Shown: in pieces, positions 25,503 through 34,324 of the stretch
Layout: every line of letters begins with the position of its first letter
Position numbering within the stretch: the first letter of the stretch is position 1
Assembly: GCA_913056395.1 (NCBI GenBank)
Contig: CAJXMG010000028.1
Coordinates: 1-34,674 of the forward strand
Source of the DNA: an uncultured bacterium
Lineage (GTDB): Bacteria; Planctomycetota; UBA8108; UBA1146
Reading direction: 5' to 3'
DNA: 34,674 nucleotides
Made by a program: the position numbers and the translations under genes
Notes under the pieces: generated by a model
What the model was told of the DNA's origin: nothing
The model's input: only the letters and a program-made list of their open reading frames with translations
Database searches by the model: none

Positions 25503-25650
25503 TCCCTCCTCATTCTGATTCGGGAGCGGTGAACAGAGAAAACTGTGCAGCCGAATCGGGCATGATATTATCCAGATGGGTTCTCGCTCCTTGGGCTCAG
25601 GGTTTGCCCAATGGATCATTACCTCCAAATTGAGGGTGGGAGAAAACAAG
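25503..25650. promoter_or_regulatory. Leader with extended -10 box and hairpin before the radical SAM gene
   Basis: TG-A-TATTAT (25563-25571) resembles an extended -10 element; there is no strong -35. Downstream, TTGGGC (25591-25596) pairs with GCCCAA (25606-25611) around a nine-base loop. GGGAG lies eight bases before the GTG at 25651. Confidence 0.4.
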
Positions 25651-28524
25651 GTGTCTGACGAAAATTCCCTCTGGGATTCCATGGGCAAAGTCGGTTTTGA
25701 GAGCGGTGCATCGGAAGCTGCCGATGGCGAAGATCTCTCGATCCTTCCTGACCGCCACGATATCGCCCAACATCCGTACAGAGCTTTTCTCCATCGACTC
25801 GAAAAGCCTGGCCGTTACACCGGTGGAGAGCTGCATTCGGTCACGAAGACGGATGCCCGACTCTCATTCCTGCTGGCATTTCCCGATGTCTACGAAATCG
25901 GCATGAGCCACCTTGGTTTCAAAATTCTGTATTCCCAGTTGAATGGCCTCGAGGACGTTCGTGCCGAGCGGGTTTACACCCCGTGGATCGATTGCGAAAA
26001 AGAGCTGCGGGCCCGTGATCTTGAATTGGTCAGTCTGGAGTCCTGGCGAAGGATGCGAGACTTTGATGTCGTCGGTTTCTCGATGCAGTACGAGCTCACC
26101 TTCACCAATATCCTGACGATGCTCGATCTCGGTGGCATCCCCATTCGTTCCAGTGATCGCGACGACGATTGTCCGTTGGTCATGGCCGGGGGACCGGTGG
26201 CCTTCCAGCCGGAACCGATGAGCCCCTTCATCGATGCCTTTTTGATCGGCGACGGTGAGGGCCATTTCCACAAGGTGGTCGACCATTGGAAGTCACTCAA
26301 GGAACTCGGTGTTTCCCGAAGAGATCGACTGATTCAGATCAGTGGTTTCGACGGGGTTTATGTTCCGTCGCTTTACAGTACTCGTGTGGAGCCTGATACA
26401 GGTTTCACCGTTGTCGATTCCCCCCTTGATGAGAGAGTTCCCGCATCCGTGAAGCGGGCTCATGTCCCCGATCTTGCCGAGTATCCATTCCCGGCCAAAT
26501 CACCGGTTCCCAACACGGAAGTGGTGTTTGATCGCGCGAGCATCGAGGTCGCAAGGGGCTGTACCGAGGGATGCCGTTTCTGCCAGGCGGGTATGATCTA
26601 CCGCCCTGTCAGGGAACGCCCCCCCGAGGATATTCAGGAAGTGGTCCGCGATGCGGTCAAGTGCGGCGGCTTCGATGAAGTTTCCCTCACAAGCCTTTCG
26701 ACGGCGGACTACAGTGCCATCGAACCACTCGTCAAAAAGATCATGCCCGAGTTGCGGGAGAAGAATATTTCCCTCAGCGTCTCTTCTCTTCGTGCCTATG
26801 GTTTGACCGATGAAATGCTGGAAGAGATGTCGAGTGTTCGCAACACTTCCCTGACCTTCGCTCCGGAGGCAGGGACACAGCGAATGCGAGACGTGGTCAA
26901 CAAGAACATCACTGAGGAAGACATCGCCAAAAGTGCGCACCGGATCTTCTCCAGAGGTTGGCGCCGGATGAAGCTGTATTTCATGATCGGCTTGCCCACA
27001 GAAGATGAAAGTGACATTCGCGGTATCGCTGAAACGGGCAAACGCATGCTCGATATCGCCCGGGAGTATCTCCCCAAGGGGCGAGCTCAGGTAACGGTCT
27101 CCGTTTCAAGCCATGTGCCGAAGCCGTTCACTCCTTTCCAGTGGGCCGCAATGGATGATCTCCCTGACATCGAGTTGAAACACGAGGCGTTGAGGAAGTG
27201 GACCCGACATCCGGGCCTTCAACTGCGCTGGCACGATCCGTCGACGAGTCACCTCGAGGGGATCCTCAGCAGGGGAGACCGGACCATCTCCAATGTCATC
27301 GAAACTGCGTGGCGAAAGGGCTGCCGATTCGACGGCTGGTCCGATCGGATGAGATTTGATTACTGGATGGAAGCGATCGAGGAGAATGAGATCGATCGCT
27401 ACCGTTTCCTCGGCACCATTCCCATCGACGCAAGGCTCCCCTGGGACCACCTCGATTGCGGAGTGGAGCCCAAGTTCCTCAAGCGCGAGTACCAGAGGGC
27501 CCTCAAGGATCGGACTTCCCATCCGTGTGGCAAACCTGGCAAGAGATTGACCCACTACACCAATGTGGCAGAGGCGAGTGAAGACAAGCGCAGATTGGTT
27601 TGTTACGACTGTGGAATCGAATGTGATCTCAGTCGAATGAAAGAAGAGCGCATCGAGTTCCTCGATTTCCTCGACGCCAAAGAGAAAAAAGTGGGCAAGG
27701 CTTCTTCACAAACCGATGCGGGGGTTGAAGAGGTCAGGGAAGAAGCCAAAAAGCGTTTTGCAGAGCGCGAAAATCCCAAGCTTCCGCCAGAGCGAAAAGA
27801 GTTGGATCATGCCAGCCATGGATATCGAATCCGATACGCCAAGCTGGGTCGCGCCCGCTACATGAGCCATTTGGATCTGAACCGTTTCCTGCCAAGGGCA
27901 ATCCGAAGAGCGGGATTCTCTCCGGCATACTCCAAGGGTTTTCACCCGATTCCCCAAATGTCGTTTGGTCCGCCGTTGCGTTTGGGAATGGCGGGGCTTT
28001 CAGAAGTGGTCGATATTCGATTGCAGGAAGATCTCCCAGCAGACGTGGTTTTTGAGAAGCTCTCTCAGCAGTGTCCTGACGGAATCGTCATTCGCTCCTT
28101 GCATGCACTGGGTCCTGATGCTCCGAAGCTTTCCATCGTCAGCAACTGGGCTGATATTCTGATCTTTACACCCAACCAAGTCGCCGATCGAATCCCGGAT
28201 GAAAAACTTGTCCAATTCCTGGACCGCAAGGAGATTCCGGTCGACAGATTGACCAAAAAAGGCAAGCCGAAGGTGGTCGATATTCGGCCTGGCATCCAAA
28301 TCCTTGAATGGCTCGAGGAGGTACCAGCAGATGTGGAAGGCCTTCAATCCTGTCAACCAGAGGAGAGATTGCTGTCGATGCGGATCTGCTTACAGGGTGA
28401 CCATCTCACCAAACCTGAGGATGTATTAGTCCAACTGTTTGATGGAGAGTTACCAGTGGGATTACAGGTTGTTCGCCGTCGCCTACTGCCGGCTCCCAGT
28501 TCAAAAAGTTTTATCAGGGTCTGA
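25651..28524 (+). CDS. B12-binding radical SAM protein fused to a DUF2344-type domain
   Basis: The 957-residue protein joins two families often encoded side by side or fused (TIGR03960-like and TIGR03936/DUF2344-like). The N-terminal region (about 50-250) is cobalamin-binding-like (LAFPDVYEIGMSHLGFKILYSQLN, VGFSMQYELTFTNIL). The radical SAM core has C304-TEG-C308-RF-C311 for the 4Fe-4S cluster. A Cys-rich link (HPCGKPGKRL and CYDCGIEC) follows. The last part (about 700-950) has YRIRYAKLGRARYMSHLDLNRFLPRAIRRAGFSPAYSKGFHPIPQMSFGPPL, characteristic of DUF2344. The GTG at 25651 has a good GGGAG site; an upstream ATG at 25576 has none. Its reaction is not established; RNA modification has been suggested from the family's gene contexts. 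Confidence 0.92.
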   Translation: MSDENSLWDSMGKVGFESGASEAADGEDLSILPDRHDIAQHPYRAFLHRLEKPGRYTGGELHSVTKTDARLSFLLAFPDVYEIGMSHLGFKILYSQLNGLEDVRAERVYTPWIDCEKELRARDLELVSLESWRRMRDFDVVGFSMQYELTFTNILTMLDLGGIPIRSSDRDDDCPLVMAGGPVAFQPEPMSPFIDAFLIGDGEGHFHKVVDHWKSLKELGVSRRDRLIQISGFDGVYVPSLYSTRVEPDTGFTVVDSPLDERVPASVKRAHVPDLAEYPFPAKSPVPNTEVVFDRASIEVARGCTEGCRFCQAGMIYRPVRERPPEDIQEVVRDAVKCGGFDEVSLTSLSTADYSAIEPLVKKIMPELREKNISLSVSSLRAYGLTDEMLEEMSSVRNTSLTFAPEAGTQRMRDVVNKNITEEDIAKSAHRIFSRGWRRMKLYFMIGLPTEDESDIRGIAETGKRMLDIAREYLPKGRAQVTVSVSSHVPKPFTPFQWAAMDDLPDIELKHEALRKWTRHPGLQLRWHDPSTSHLEGILSRGDRTISNVIETAWRKGCRFDGWSDRMRFDYWMEAIEENEIDRYRFLGTIPIDARLPWDHLDCGVEPKFLKREYQRALKDRTSHPCGKPGKRLTHYTNVAEASEDKRRLVCYDCGIECDLSRMKEERIEFLDFLDAKEKKVGKASSQTDAGVEEVREEAKKRFAERENPKLPPERKELDHASHGYRIRYAKLGRARYMSHLDLNRFLPRAIRRAGFSPAYSKGFHPIPQMSFGPPLRLGMAGLSEVVDIRLQEDLPADVVFEKLSQQCPDGIVIRSLHALGPDAPKLSIVSNWADILIFTPNQVADRIPDEKLVQFLDRKEIPVDRLTKKGKPKVVDIRPGIQILEWLEEVPADVEGLQSCQPEERLLSMRICLQGDHLTKPEDVLVQLFDGELPVGLQVVRRRLLPAPSSKSFIRV

Positions 28525-28533
28525 TGATATAAA
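28525..28533 (+). promoter_or_regulatory. Extended -10 promoter candidate for the four-gene operon
   Basis: TG-A-TATAAA follows the radical SAM stop codon. With this promoter the transcript would carry a leader of about 210 bases containing the two dyads at 28568-28635. The -35 position is poor, which extended -10 promoters tolerate. Confidence 0.4.
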
Positions 28534-28567
28534 AGCGGCATAGCTGGGTGGTGTGTTTCGGATCAAT

Positions 28568-28635
28568 GGTCTCCACCCTCATCCGATCAAATTGAGACCT
28601 CCAAATAAGTCCACAAAGTGTTTAAAAATTTGTGG
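28568..28635. promoter_or_regulatory. Two inverted repeats in the operon leader
   Basis: GGTCTC (28568-28573) is complementary to GAGACC (28594-28599) over a 20-base gap, and CCACAAA (28611-28617) to TTTGTGG (28629-28635) over an 11-base A/T-rich gap. GATCAA also repeats (28561-28566, 28585-28590). Either RNA hairpins in a long leader or protein-binding sites; no T-run follows, so not a standard terminator. Confidence 0.42.
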
Positions 28636-28749
28636 TTCCGATATCGTAGTGCGAAGATCCTAATCTGATTCTTTCCAACTCCTTAAAAATAAACGTGATG
28701 ATCCTATGCAAGAGTTCTGGGGGACTTCGAGCATGGGGGAAAAGCACAG

Positions 28750-31122
28750 ATGACGATCAGTCAAGAAATTACTGCAAATATCGCTTTGGATCGTGCAGTT
28801 GCCGCGTTAAAGGCCGCAGGCTGTGATCCCAAAAATGCTGATACTCTTCCATATTGCCATAAAGACCTGACCGCAGGCTCTGAAATGGAGTTCCAGGTCG
28901 CGGTGCTGGGATCATGGAAAAATGTTGATCTTCCACAATCCATATTGGGCAGTGATGATCTTACTGACCAAAAAAAGCGAGTTGCCCGTGGTGAAAGCTC
29001 GAGTACTCGCTTGTCCCAATTGGTGGATTTTCTGAAAAACCCTAAGACTTCAGTTTGGGAAAACTCATGGGTTCGAATCCCGGTGAAAAAAACTTCCAAA
29101 TCAGTCAGTGAAGAGTTTTTGAATGATATGCATTCGGATCGCTTGGATTCAAGCAGTGTATTGAGATCTGATCGAAACATTTTTGAGTTTGAAAAAGACG
29201 GCGAGAAGTGGATACGTGTTCCAGTGTCATACCTTCTCAATCTCGCTCTGGCATCAATTCAGGGTGAATCAATCCCACAAGTAGAACAGCTCGCGGAAAA
29301 ACTCAAGATTCATTTTTTGAATGATAACACCTCGCCAGAATCGACTTCTTTTCATGTAATGAATCCAGGCGAGGCCAGTGGGCGCGGAATTGAGATCGCC
29401 AGGGAAGCCTCATTCAGATTTTTGTTCTCGCAACTTCTTGTTCAGTACGCCAATCAAAAATTTGGTTTGTTGGAGTCGGGGCAAAAAGTTGAGATTTTTT
29501 TCCAGCCTCACCCAGCAGAGAACCAAAAATCTCTTAATCGATTGATTTCAGATAATCAGTATCGGGAGCTTTTCTGCAGTCCATGTCTGTCGGGTTGGCA
29601 AAACGGAGAAAAAAAAGCAGCCTATATGAGGTTGTGTCATGAGGTTCTCAGTCGATCACATCTCAACATTATTCCAAAAATCAAAGACGCTGGAATTCTG
29701 AAAAACAATCTTGTCGTATTGCCGAGCACTTCAAGCACATCCCTTTCAAACAATGGCATCCATTTGACACTGGGTAGCAAATTGTTAACTGAAATGCGTA
29801 GTCGGCAAGATTCAGGTTTCGGGGCTGAAGAAGAGAAAAGCCTTGTTGATCTGGTTTCAAAAGTCGTTGAGCATTTTTTAGGCCTTTTTGTAGGTTATAT
29901 ATCAGCTTCTCCCTATCGCCTGGATTTCAAAGATTTCCATCCTGAAGTCGCCCTGGGGTTTCTTCCTCATCAATTGACAGGAAAACACCTCAGGATGATC
30001 TGGCGTCGTTGGAGAGTGAAAGCAAAAAACAGGTGCTTGGGAAGGAATATGAAACCGTATGGTCCATATTGGATAGACCGGATTCGCCAAATTCTCTTCA
30101 GGCTTAAAGGGGACCATGTACCAGACTATCGCTTGATTGATTATCCGATTTCATTTTTGAGTACAGAAAAAAAATCGTCACAAAATGGTCTGCTGGGAAA
30201 TCACGACCGATTGAAAAGAGACTTGGAAAGAGAAAGTGTCTTTGATAGTCGGATGTCAATGTATTTGCCATTCAAGCCGCGCTCATATGATTCTCATGGG
30301 TTTGTCGGTATTGAAAGTCGGATTCATTCACTGTTCCCCTCATTCAAGCAAGATTTTGCTCTATGTTCAGACCTGTTGATTCTGCTGACGGCATTTGCTC
30401 ACCAGCAGATTATTGCAGGGCGAGTCACCCATGATTCCATCCCTGATGATCAGGACTCAGAGAGTGAGCGAAGGCAGTTGATTTTCGCCTCAGCGCTGGG
30501 ATTGCCAACCGCCTTCATAAGGCCTCATGGACCTGATTTGTTCATGGGAAGAGTGTTGGCGTACTGCGATGGTTCTCGAAGAAGTTATCGATACAAAGGA
30601 AAAATACGAGTCTCTGTTCAGGAATATTTAAAAGGCTGTCTGAAGTTGATAAAAATCTCATCAAGTGAACTGATCAGTCACTTGGGAATGTCTGAGACCA
30701 TTCAGGAAATTGAATCAAGAATTGACTACCCACGAGAAAGGAGTAGTGCCGGAAGAATCACGGGTGCTGTCCTCGAAAATTTACAAGTTTCTTCTCCGAT
30801 GAATGTGTGTGCGCAGAAGTTTAATCAGGGGCTCGAAGAGTGGTGTCGTGGTGACCTCCGTAATGATCAGTTGAAGGAGGCATTTGAGGATTTACGAGCG
30901 ACCTTGATCAGATTAAAGCCCAGTGCGGAATTCCAGTCACAAGTAAGTGAACTTGGAAATATCCAGAACCCGTTGGGGTTTGTAGATGAAGTCCAAGAGT
31001 CGATCGTTCAGCAGGATTGCAGTGAAGACAGGATCGCAACCTTGATTTCATTGATGATTCTTGTTGAACAGTTTCTGCAAAAAGAATCTGAGAATCTTGT
31101 TGAGAAGGAAAAAGTATCATGA
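28750..31122 (+). CDS. Unrecognised 790-residue protein, first gene of PSD-like/Lgt-like/IMPase operon
   Basis: I do not recognise this protein and see no named domain. There is no signal peptide and no convincing membrane span. Notable parts are a CSPC pair (C276, C279), a strongly basic stretch (about 415-460, with KHLRMIWRRWRVKAKNR and RIRQILFRLKGDH), a moderately hydrophobic segment (SDLLILLTAFAHQQIIAG, about 541-558), the motif LGLPTAFIRPHGPDLFMGRVLAYCDG (about 580-605), and a helical C-terminus rich in Glu and Lys. GGGGGA precedes the ATG. Its stop overlaps the PSD-like start (ATGA). Base composition is lower in GC than most of the window. Its basic surface and lipid-enzyme neighbours suggest a membrane-associated or nucleotide-linked enzyme, but this is a guess. 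Confidence 0.82.
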   Translation: MTISQEITANIALDRAVAALKAAGCDPKNADTLPYCHKDLTAGSEMEFQVAVLGSWKNVDLPQSILGSDDLTDQKKRVARGESSSTRLSQLVDFLKNPKTSVWENSWVRIPVKKTSKSVSEEFLNDMHSDRLDSSSVLRSDRNIFEFEKDGEKWIRVPVSYLLNLALASIQGESIPQVEQLAEKLKIHFLNDNTSPESTSFHVMNPGEASGRGIEIAREASFRFLFSQLLVQYANQKFGLLESGQKVEIFFQPHPAENQKSLNRLISDNQYRELFCSPCLSGWQNGEKKAAYMRLCHEVLSRSHLNIIPKIKDAGILKNNLVVLPSTSSTSLSNNGIHLTLGSKLLTEMRSRQDSGFGAEEEKSLVDLVSKVVEHFLGLFVGYISASPYRLDFKDFHPEVALGFLPHQLTGKHLRMIWRRWRVKAKNRCLGRNMKPYGPYWIDRIRQILFRLKGDHVPDYRLIDYPISFLSTEKKSSQNGLLGNHDRLKRDLERESVFDSRMSMYLPFKPRSYDSHGFVGIESRIHSLFPSFKQDFALCSDLLILLTAFAHQQIIAGRVTHDSIPDDQDSESERRQLIFASALGLPTAFIRPHGPDLFMGRVLAYCDGSRRSYRYKGKIRVSVQEYLKGCLKLIKISSSELISHLGMSETIQEIESRIDYPRERSSAGRITGAVLENLQVSSPMNVCAQKFNQGLEEWCRGDLRNDQLKEAFEDLRATLIRLKPSAEFQSQVSELGNIQNPLGFVDEVQESIVQQDCSEDRIATLISLMILVEQFLQKESENLVEKEKVS

Positions 31123-32129
31123 ATCCGCATCAGTTTGTGTGCAGGGAAGACGGTCAGGTAATCACGGAAGAACTTTTCGGTGATCAAATCGTTCGCTTTC
31201 TCTATAGCGAGGCCAGAGAAAAAGCGCCTGCGTTGTTTCAAATGCTGACTGGAGAGCGGGCTTCTGATCTATTGGGGCTACTGAATTTTGATTTGCCTTT
31301 GAGTGCCACTTTTTCCGGAAGCCAACGTTTCTTGAAAGCTCGAGGAGTGGATCTGGAAGAATCCCTGATCTCAGCGAACGAGATGAAAACTCCCCGGGAT
31401 TTCTTCGAGAGGAAGATCTGTTATTGGAAATCTCGTCCGATGCCAGAAGATTCTGAAGTTGTCGTGTCTCCTGCTGATTCCCGAATGATTGTCGGTGGGC
31501 TTTCAGAGGTGAGTTATCTGAAGATCAAAGATAAGTTTTTCAAGCTCAATGAGTTGCTTGGCACCGACCGCACGGATCTTCATACCATCTTCCATGAAGG
31601 AGACTTCGCAATATTCAGGCTGACTCCGGAAATGTACCACTGGAATCATGTGCCAGTGTCTGGAGTGGTTAGAGAAATTTACACTCTTGATGGAGATTAT
31701 CATTCCTGTAATCCAGGTGCCGTTGTCAAAATGGTCACTCCATATTCCGCCAATCGACGAGTTGTGACGATCATCGATACTGACGTACCTCATGGTTCGT
31801 GGGTCGGAAGAGTGGCAATGGTCGAAATTGTCGCTTTGATGATCGGCGGGATCGATCAAAGGTATTCACAGCAAAAATATGACAGTCCTACCGATGTTGT
31901 TCCTCGAATGTTTCTGAAAAAGGGGCAACCCAAGAGTTTGTACCGGCCCGGAAGCAGTACAGATGTTTTGATTTTTGAACCGGGCAGGCTTGAATTTGAT
32001 CAGGATTTGGTCTCATTTCGCAGCCGTTCAGATGTTCAGAGTCGCTTCAATGCATTTGGTGGCCATCTCAATGAAACTGAAGTGAAAGTCAGGCAGTCCA
32101 TCGCACGTAAAATAGGGGGGCAGGGCTGA
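31119..32129 (+). CDS. psd: Phosphatidylserine decarboxylase-like protein
   Basis: PSD makes phosphatidylethanolamine from phosphatidylserine using a pyruvoyl group formed by self-cleavage at a Gly-Ser bond. Family motifs are SPADSRM (D120), FHEGDFAIFRLTPEMYHWNHVPVSG (H174, H177), PHGSWVGRVAMVEIVALMIGG and PGSSTDVLIFEPG, where G278-S279 or the next serine would be the cleavage point. The usual motif is GST, so GSST is a variant. No membrane helix. It is 336 residues, similar to PSD pro-enzymes of the long soluble type. Translationally coupled to the genes on both sides. It may act on phosphatidylserine or a related serine-headed lipid. Confidence 0.87.
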   Translation: MNPHQFVCREDGQVITEELFGDQIVRFLYSEAREKAPALFQMLTGERASDLLGLLNFDLPLSATFSGSQRFLKARGVDLEESLISANEMKTPRDFFERKICYWKSRPMPEDSEVVVSPADSRMIVGGLSEVSYLKIKDKFFKLNELLGTDRTDLHTIFHEGDFAIFRLTPEMYHWNHVPVSGVVREIYTLDGDYHSCNPGAVVKMVTPYSANRRVVTIIDTDVPHGSWVGRVAMVEIVALMIGGIDQRYSQQKYDSPTDVVPRMFLKKGQPKSLYRPGSSTDVLIFEPGRLEFDQDLVSFRSRSDVQSRFNAFGGHLNETEVKVRQSIARKIGGQG

Positions 32130-32131
32130 TC

Positions 32132-33184
32132 ATGATGATGTTCCTTACGATTTTAGGCCTTGTAACTCTTGTTCCCTTGATTCTTGGTATTCGAAAGTTG
32201 GCCGGTGATCGCTGGCAAGTTTTAGCCTCTATTCCATTACATTCCAATCCTGATGGAACCTGGGAGGCGGGTAACTTCACCTGGTATGGATTTATCTCAG
32301 CTTCTGCTTACGCTCTTTCGGTCAGTGTATTATGGATCTTGCTACTGGCTCTTGAATTTCAGTTTTCGGAAGCAGTGATATTGATTACGGCAGTGATGGC
32401 TGTCGTGATTCCTGCTTCAAGAAAAATTGCACAATGGATTGAGGGAAGAAAAAACACATTCAGTATTGGCGCTGCTGCCTTTGTCGGAATGATTTTGTGT
32501 CCTCTCTTGCTTTTTATTGTGAGTCAATTGGAGCTCTATGGCCGTCCATTGCCGATTCTTGAGGCTACCGCAGCCTTCACTATCGCTTATTCATTCGGTG
32601 AAGGTTTGGGGCGATTGGCGTGTATTTCATTTGGCTGTTGTTACGGTAAGCCAGTTGATGAATTAACAGGTATTGCTCAACGGATCTTTAGGCAATTTAA
32701 AATAACCTATAACTCCATGGAAACCCGGAAGGTTCAATATGATTCCGGGTATTCCCAAAGGCCCCTGGTTGCGATTCCTGCAATCACCGCTGTGCTATGT
32801 ACAGTTACTGGACTGATTTCTACGGCGTTGTTTTTATCAGGAGAATTTATTTTCGCATTGCTGTTGAGTCTTGGTGTTACTCAGATCTGGAGATTTGGTT
32901 CCGAGTTTTTACGTTCGGACTACAGGGGAGATAACAGCATCAGTGCATATCAGTGGATGGCTTTACTGGGATTGTTCGGCGCTATCGTGTTTGTTTCGTC
33001 AGTCTCAACCACAGGAGTTCTTCCTGATCTTGACAATGCGTTGACGATGGTTTGGCAACCTGGTCCGATTCTCGTTACACAGGGTTTATGGCTCTTCATA
33101 TTTTTTTTCATGGGTTGGAGTGATGTGACAAGTTCGACGGTCAGTCTTCATCTTTGCAGAAACAAGGTTGAGGAAGCTGTATGA
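32132..33184 (+). CDS. Lgt-like (prolipoprotein diacylglyceryl transferase family) membrane protein
   Basis: This 350-residue protein has about seven or eight hydrophobic helices. Lgt-like landmarks are FTWYGFISASAYA (about 48-60), SFGEGLGRLACISFGCCYGKPVDE (G156-R161, C169, C170) matching the Lgt signature GRxGN... in its GCCYG variant, and RFGSEFLRSDYRGD near the C-terminus, matching the conserved Arg region. The HGG motif expected before the signature is not seen; TFSIGAAAFVGMI is in that place. Lgt moves diacylglycerol from phosphatidylglycerol to lipoprotein cysteine. This divergent form may use another acceptor. The ATG is two bases after the PSD-like stop; its own stop overlaps the next start (ATGA). 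Confidence 0.83.
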   Translation: MMMFLTILGLVTLVPLILGIRKLAGDRWQVLASIPLHSNPDGTWEAGNFTWYGFISASAYALSVSVLWILLLALEFQFSEAVILITAVMAVVIPASRKIAQWIEGRKNTFSIGAAAFVGMILCPLLLFIVSQLELYGRPLPILEATAAFTIAYSFGEGLGRLACISFGCCYGKPVDELTGIAQRIFRQFKITYNSMETRKVQYDSGYSQRPLVAIPAITAVLCTVTGLISTALFLSGEFIFALLLSLGVTQIWRFGSEFLRSDYRGDNSISAYQWMALLGLFGAIVFVSSVSTTGVLPDLDNALTMVWQPGPILVTQGLWLFIFFFMGWSDVTSSTVSLHLCRNKVEEAV

Positions 33185-34080
33185 ACCCCAAACAAAAAAC
33201 CGAACCGGTTTCTCAAAGTGATTTGGATCAATGGATTCAATGGGCATTGATTGCTTCAAGGAAAGCAGCGTCCATTCAGAGAGATTTCTTTCGCAATCCG
33301 ATCATTGAGGCGGATTCAAAAGCAGATGGGTCTCCTGTCACTCTTGCGGATACTCAATCAGAAGAGATCATTCGCGAAGAATTGAGACTTCAGGGTTCCG
33401 AGTTTGGCTTATACGGGGAAGAGTTTGGTCAGGAGGGGGAACTGGAGGAATGCTGGGTGATCGATCCTATAGATGGGACCCGCAATTTTGTGGATGGCCT
33501 GCCAGGTTTTGCGATCCTGATCGGATTGAGGATCAGTGGATCACCTCTTTTGGGAGTGGTTCATGCTCCAGCCTTGGGGGCGATGGCCGGAGATCCTGAA
33601 CTCATGGGATGGACGTGGATAGGAATCGCTGACAGGGGAGCATGGCGTGGTTACGGAACTCACCCGCAAACAGCGCAAAAAGACGCCATCAGGGTTCGTG
33701 ACTGCAAGGCTCTCAGCGATACCTTTCTCTGTCATGGAGGACTCAGCCATATTCACGAATCCGGGAAGTGGGATTCATGGAGCAAGCTCACATCTTCTGT
33801 TCGAAGAACTCGGGGATTTGGTGATTGGTGGGGGCACTGTCTTGTCGCAGAGGGTGCAGCCGATGCCATGTACGACCCCAGAGTCGAGCTTCATGACACG
33901 GTGGCGGTGGAAGCACTGGTTCGGGGTGCCGGTGGAGTTCTGCTTGCTCGCGAGAAAGTGACGCGCAACTACATCGGCCCCACTGTGTCAGGAAGTACTG
34001 AGATCGCTGAGTCTATAGGCATATGGATGGAGGGGACCGGTATGGTCCCCGCCTCGAATGCTGAATGGAACAGAGACTGA
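33181..34080 (+). CDS. Inositol-monophosphatase/HisN-like phosphatase
   Basis: This 299-residue Mg-dependent phosphatase has PVTLADTQSEEIIREEL, GEEFG, WVIDPIDGTRNF (metal ligands D95 and D98; G99-T100) and the C-terminal LHDTVAVEALVRGAGG (D239), which are the two standard IMPase patterns. PVT-AD and the N rather than H after DGTR are closer to histidinol-phosphatase HisN-type members, but as last gene of a lipid-enzyme operon it may instead remove phosphate from a lipid head-group precursor. ATGA overlap with the Lgt-like gene. The stop is 10 bases from the convergent ferredoxin's stop. Confidence 0.9.
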   Translation: MNPKQKTEPVSQSDLDQWIQWALIASRKAASIQRDFFRNPIIEADSKADGSPVTLADTQSEEIIREELRLQGSEFGLYGEEFGQEGELEECWVIDPIDGTRNFVDGLPGFAILIGLRISGSPLLGVVHAPALGAMAGDPELMGWTWIGIADRGAWRGYGTHPQTAQKDAIRVRDCKALSDTFLCHGGLSHIHESGKWDSWSKLTSSVRRTRGFGDWWGHCLVAEGAADAMYDPRVELHDTVAVEALVRGAGGVLLAREKVTRNYIGPTVSGSTEIAESIGIWMEGTGMVPASNAEWNRD

Positions 34081-34090
34081 AGAGCACTCA

Positions 34091-34324
34091 CTAGGAGCAG
34101 TCGTCGCCAATCGCCTCAACGGGGCATTCTTCCTTGGCTTGCTCACAGAGTTCTTCCTCTTCCGGAGACTCCGGCTGCTTGAAGACGAAGGAGTAGCCCT
34201 CGTCCTCGTTGGCCTTGAAGTTGTCAGGAGCGGTAGTTCTGCAGAGATCGCAGTCGATGCACTCGTCATCGACGTACCACTTGCCTGCAATATTGCTTTC
34301 GACCTTATTTGCGGGATCTGCCAT
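34091..34324 (-). CDS. Ferredoxin, single [4Fe-4S]-type
   Basis: This 77-residue acidic electron carrier has C22-ID-C25-DL-C28 and a distant C67-P-VEAI as the four cluster ligands, the pattern of short single-cluster ferredoxins. C60 and C76 are additional. GAGG sits upstream of the ATG (AGGAGG, six bases away). A hairpin (34369-34390) lies in its leader. It has no partner on the same strand; redox partner unknown. Confidence 0.92.
   Translation of the reverse strand: MADPANKVESNIAGKWYVDDECIDCDLCRTTAPDNFKANEDEGYSFVFKQPESPEEEELCEQAKEECPVEAIGDDCS

Follow-up and report, generated by a model that had tools for sequence, protein, structure and literature searches.

The stretch of DNA analyzed here (the window, 34,674 nucleotides from an uncultured marine planctomycete) contains a run of four genes, all on the forward strand. 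Gene 1 (28750-31122, +) encodes a soluble protein of 790 aa without matches to any family; gene 2 (31119-32129, +) encodes a 336-aa pyruvoyl decarboxylase of the PSD family, of the long type (PF02666, E-value 1.6e-36); gene 3 (32132-33184, +) encodes a divergent integral membrane protein of 350 aa with the Lgt fold (PF01790, a weak match with E-value 9.7e-7); and gene 4 (33181-34080, +) encodes a 299-aa member of the inositol-monophosphatase (IMPase) superfamily (PF00459, E-value 7.1e-34), with the HisN-type enzymes as its closest relatives. As previously described for this DNA, all four genes are present on the same strand and are joined, in order, by an ATGA overlap, a 2-base gap and a second ATGA overlap. 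Genes 1-3 show GC fractions of 0.436, 0.470 and 0.443, respectively, as against 0.528 for gene 4 and 0.54 for the whole window. The run is flanked on its 5' side by a gene (25576-28524), shared by the seven genomes of the genus, for a 982-aa protein in which a TIGR03960 radical SAM module is fused to DUF2344/TIGR03936, and on the other side by a small ferredoxin-like gene oriented in the opposite direction (34091-34324, -), beyond which, from 34613 onward (+), there is the start of a gene whose product appears to resemble the MqnD-type menaquinone synthesis proteins. A search of the window against Rfam recovered no structured RNA.

Comparison of the window by blastn with the oriented empty sites of two congeners (G002 and G004) delineates an insert of 5.57 kb (28526..34096): the left flank aligns up to 28525 and the right flank from 34097, at 95.5-95.7% identity, and in both congeners only about 59 bp separate the radical-SAM gene, which ends at 28524 in the window, from the ferredoxin gene. 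Genes 1-4 are likewise all missing from two further congeners (G001 and G005). An assembly artefact can be ruled out, as the insert occurs in three assemblies and the empty site in two congeners. Near-identical copies (96-99%) were found in the MAGs Planctomycetia bacterium TMED53 and Planctomycetota MCMED-G47, which assigns the window to this planctomycete genus, and a genome-wide contig scan, in which window-specific peptides served as queries, returned near-identical copies only. Given the insert relative to the congeners and the low GC relative to the window, genes 1-3 look horizontally acquired; loss of the four-gene operon as a block from the congeners is a possible alternative to such an acquisition.

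Gene 1 is present in 9 of the 392 genomes of the phylum, namely in three from the window's genus and in six that belong to another class, and the trio of genes 1-3 is found in 3 of 7 genomes of the genus and 6 of 75 genomes of this second class, Brocadiae, a patchy distribution. In the six Brocadiae genomes, which represent two families, genes 1, 2 and 3 follow one another without interruption in an unchanged order (one of these distant carriers, G321, has gene 1 split across two contigs), with identities to the window copies of 40-45% for gene 1, 48-54% for gene 2 and 35-39% for gene 3. These genes are not chance ORFs, given that the 790-aa frame of gene 1 remains open in six distant genomes and is conserved there at 40-45% identity. 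The earlier note had asked whether the four-gene set recurs, and this holds for the trio, which was recovered with gene 1 beside the PSD and Lgt-like genes in every readable distant neighborhood, whereas the IMPase was never found there; thus, the homologs of gene 1 do not occur apart from PSD and Lgt-like genes, as might have been the case, but are adjacent to them in all six distant genomes. A profile of gene 3 retrieves 10 of the 392 genomes, i.e. the nine with gene 1 and one further planctomycete (G208), a fragmented genome of 90% completeness that encodes a PSD-Lgt pair without gene 1. Anammox bacteria are among the carriers, since three of the six Brocadiae genomes possess hydrazine synthase, which in G353 shares a contig with the trio. 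A role specific to anammox or ladderanes is ruled out by the presence of the trio in just 6 of 75 genomes of the class and by the window genome having no match to hydrazine synthase. Among the papers searched, none joins these genes.

Gene 2 is a clear member of the PSD family (PF02666, 126.3 bits against a cut-off of 22), resembling the long type typified by PRK00723 and matching the solved E. coli enzymes (6l06/7cnw). It shares with them the conserved Asp, the His-x-x-His region and the GS self-cleavage motif: D120, H174, H177 and the run P277 G278 S279 S280 T281 are invariant in six copies, and self-cleavage is predicted at Gly278-Ser279 of the PGSST motif. It differs in being a second copy, in a genome with a separate housekeeping PSD, and in falling below every PSD equivalog cut-off. 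As the module PSDs score 113-138 bits against the 371-bit cut-off of the nearest equivalog model, the substrate of gene 2 may be different from phosphatidylserine. The plasmid matches of gene 2 are ordinary PSDs; no homologs of gene 3 were found on plasmids, and none of gene 1 on plasmids or viral contigs.

Gene 3 matches PF01790 marginally (28.8 bits against a cut-off of 24.9). E. coli Lgt is inactive when mutated at R143, R239, E243, R246, H103, E151 or G145 (PMC4728403). Alignment of gene 3 with E. coli Lgt (5azb) and with housekeeping Lgts places it in the same fold family, with equivalents of Y26-G27 retained and those of R143, R239, E243 and R246 (R161, R254, E258 and R261 in gene 3) invariant across the Lgt-like proteins. 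In these proteins, however, H103 is replaced by Val in most copies, E151 by Cys and G145 by Ala; moreover, gene 3, with about 350 aa, has a changed arm-2 HGGL motif and extra N- and C-terminal segments, and its version of the Lgt signature reads GRLACISFGCC in place of the full G-R-L-G-N-F-I-N-G-E. Since H103 and E151 are likewise missing from the housekeeping Lgts of these planctomycetes, the loss of these two residues is not in itself proof of inactivity. Our reading of this pattern of conservation is that the chemistry on the donor lipid is likely kept while the acceptor has changed.

A housekeeping PSD separate from that of the trio is encoded in all 13 genomes checked (in the window's genus it adjoins a CDP-alcohol phosphatidyltransferase), and a separate housekeeping Lgt in 11 of the 13, the two where it was not found, G003 and G006, being less complete genomes. 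The module PSDs are 48-54% identical to each other across classes; against the housekeeping PSDs they yield a single weak match (29% over 89 residues). Likewise, the Lgt-like proteins are 35-38% identical across classes and show short weak matches only to the housekeeping Lgts, none of which is found by the Lgt-like profile at E <= 1e-20. With a separate housekeeping PSD in every carrier checked and a separate Lgt in nearly all, the module is accessory. One might still envisage a more conventional situation, in which the PSD serves to make more phosphatidylethanolamine, the Lgt-like protein attaches lipid to a special set of lipoproteins, and gene 1 encodes a soluble factor that has nothing to do with either, operon linkage being all that keeps the three together. 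The retention of the main catalytic residues of their families by both the PSD and the Lgt-like protein, and the existence of extra PSD copies elsewhere, as in G353 with its three PSD loci, would fit this scenario. We nevertheless regard it as unlikely: the trio has remained contiguous across two families and in a different class, at identities of 35-54%, the Lgt-like group stands apart from the housekeeping Lgts in the above profile search, and no gene for a lipoprotein or an acceptor is found repeatedly next to the trio.

Gene 4 scores 118 bits against the Inositol_P profile (cut-off 27) and possesses the metal-binding motifs GEEF and DPIDGTRNF. Its nearest family is that of the HisN-type histidinol-phosphatases (TIGR02067, 6.1e-52), yet its score of 176.6 bits lies below the 275.15-bit cut-off; the best PDB match is also a histidinol-phosphatase (5yht). 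It thus appears nearer to histidinol-phosphatase than to a lipid phosphatase. As it is missing from every distant module locus (the six Brocadiae loci and G208), gene 4 is not part of the recurring module, the unit being genes 1-3 only. At the insertion site of two trio-less congeners, between the radical-SAM and ferredoxin genes, there are short, degraded remnants of the phosphatase gene, derived from its 3' part (L029 in G005, with 46% identity over 37 residues and an E-value of 2e-7, and L030 in G001), and no remnants of genes 1-3 were found there. Gene 4 hence looks older at the site than genes 1-3, and its inclusion in the set by the earlier note was not upheld. We also considered that all four genes might go back to a single pathway in the ancestor of the genus, which the congeners have lost en bloc and in which the phosphatase would dephosphorylate the lipid product or its precursor. 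The tight ATGA junction to the IMPase, the joint absence of the four genes from G001, G002, G004 and G005, and the 3' remnants, which a block deletion would leave, are compatible with such a history; it is made quite improbable by the lack of the IMPase in all distant copies, its GC of 0.528 against 0.44-0.47 for the trio, the missing remnants of genes 1-3 in G001 and G005 and the HisN-type affinities of the enzyme.

Gene 1 did not turn out to belong to an already characterized family with an unrelated role: no match was recovered in Pfam, NCBIfam, PHROGs, PADLOC or the PDB, and relaxing the Pfam search to E-values of up to 10 yielded nothing except one spurious match. A role as a defense system was rejected, as PADLOC and PHROGs gave no match. 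The protein is hydrophilic, with a maximum of 1.47 in a 19-residue Kyte-Doolittle scan, in which no transmembrane helix, signal peptide or lipobox was apparent. Its conserved blocks comprise WENSW, FLNDNxSPE, NPCLSGW, LCHxVLSRS, LGFLPHE and ESERRQ. AlphaFold2 gave mean pLDDT values of 36.7 for the window protein with two near-identical relatives and 38.8 for a 405-aa core alone, both too low to be informative about the fold. We also asked whether gene 1 could belong with the carboxylate-amine ligases (glutamate-cysteine ligase/glutamine synthetase superfamily) and build an amino-acid or peptide head group that is then decarboxylated and lipidated by the PSD and the Lgt-like protein. This is highly improbable, and a glutamate-cysteine ligase is not claimed here: although GxExE (E45, E47), NNGxH (H338), SxxP and ExR (E522, R524) can be discerned by eye in the same order as E27/E29, H150, GASP and E328/R330 of E. 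coli GshA, with comparable spacing (50 vs 52 residues from H to P and 184 vs 178 from H to E in gene 1 and GshA, respectively), hhalign probabilities are 0.1-1.4%, a custom profile-profile alignment fails to outscore shuffled columns (Z of approximately 1), an anchored four-motif chain falls below the shuffle mean, and the Pfam search up to an E-value of 10 was empty bar the spurious match. The role of gene 1 could also be non-enzymatic.

Further contextual information comes from the genes following the trio. A lipid N-methyltransferase resembling PmtA and OlsG is encoded downstream of it in three anammox-family genomes (G285, G075 and G369); for the gene in G285 and G075 the nearest models are PmtA (NF045881) and OlsG (NF041658), though it scores 54-73 bits against cut-offs of 250-350. 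In G353, the corresponding position is taken by an AstE/AspA-methyltransferase fusion. No such methyltransferase is present in the window, G095 or G208. In G285 and G075, the PmtA/OlsG-like gene that follows the trio is suggestive of an amine-bearing lipid as the product of the module. A lipid role had earlier been proposed for the whole set; the methyltransferases beside the three anammox-family copies favor it, while the membership of the IMPase was not supported. Around the window copy, there is no gene for a protein acceptor of the kind that the earlier note had in mind.

Taken together, the explanation that we prefer, and to which we would give about an even chance, is that the trio is a horizontally spread accessory module that makes an aminolipid by decarboxylation and diacylglyceryl transfer, its product probably being an unusual membrane lipid. 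As for the chemistry, the order of the steps, the product and the part played by gene 1, we infer the following: the PSD paralog would cleave itself to the pyruvoyl form and decarboxylate a lipid of the serine type, or of another amino-acid type, resulting in an aminoethyl head group. The Lgt-fold protein would use its retained arginines to move diacylglyceryl from a phospholipid donor, probably phosphatidylglycerol, to an acceptor other than an ordinary lipobox cysteine. The cytoplasmic gene 1 protein would most likely be involved, as an enzyme or carrier, in preparing or delivering either the acceptor or the head-group substrate. In some anammox relatives, the PmtA/OlsG-like enzyme may N-methylate the amine, and the HisN-like phosphatase would be a passenger specific to the window's genus.

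A more specific form of the aminolipid explanation, which we consider very unlikely as it stands, posits an undescribed kind of lipid: an enzyme encoded by gene 1 would supply an amino acid, either free or conjugated, to whose thiol or hydroxyl group the Lgt-like enzyme would attach diacylglycerol, followed by removal of the carboxyl group by the PSD-like enzyme, giving a phosphate-free aminoethyl thioether or ether lipid that is N-methylated in some anammox bacteria. If this were true, a new family of enzymes would have gene 1 as its first member. A comparable logic is seen in the betaine-lipid pathway of BtaA and BtaB, also an accessory route, in which an amino-acid-derived head group is placed on diacylglycerol and then N-methylated as in the proposed module; to our knowledge, however, BtaA and BtaB belong to enzyme families different from those of the module, and no homolog of PSD or Lgt is involved. 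If a distinct lipid is indeed made by the trio, this would account for paralogs of two textbook lipid enzymes, provide a testable role for the large uncharacterized protein family of gene 1 and tie the lipid remodeling of marine planctomycetes to that of anammox bacteria. At 4.4 kb, the trio is compact and self-contained, which opens its product to direct search by expression combined with lipidomics.

Several other genes were observed around the distant loci. The fusion protein of G353 (L016, 4632-6077, -) has 481 aa and combines an AstE/AspA-like deacylase with a class I methyltransferase, its gene immediately following that for the Lgt-like protein; in G208, too, there is an AstE/AspA-like gene, located 5' of the PSD-Lgt pair (L047, 6918-7631). 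Several kb 5' of the same pair, an AfsA-type double hotdog protein and an AMP-binding ligase are encoded (L047, 258-3531). In three anammox-family genomes, a housekeeping Lgt accompanied by a gene that appears PanD-like is situated a few kb 5' of the trio (L013 10333-11552, L014 5580-6793 and L019 2647-3887). Finally, in two genomes the trio is followed, in identical order, by the PmtA/OlsG-like methyltransferase, a fusion of a PHP domain with a GT4 glycosyltransferase of approximately 815 aa and a radical SAM protein (L014 13910-18314 and L015 13272-17724), a stretch that may represent a longer lipid or glycolipid cluster.
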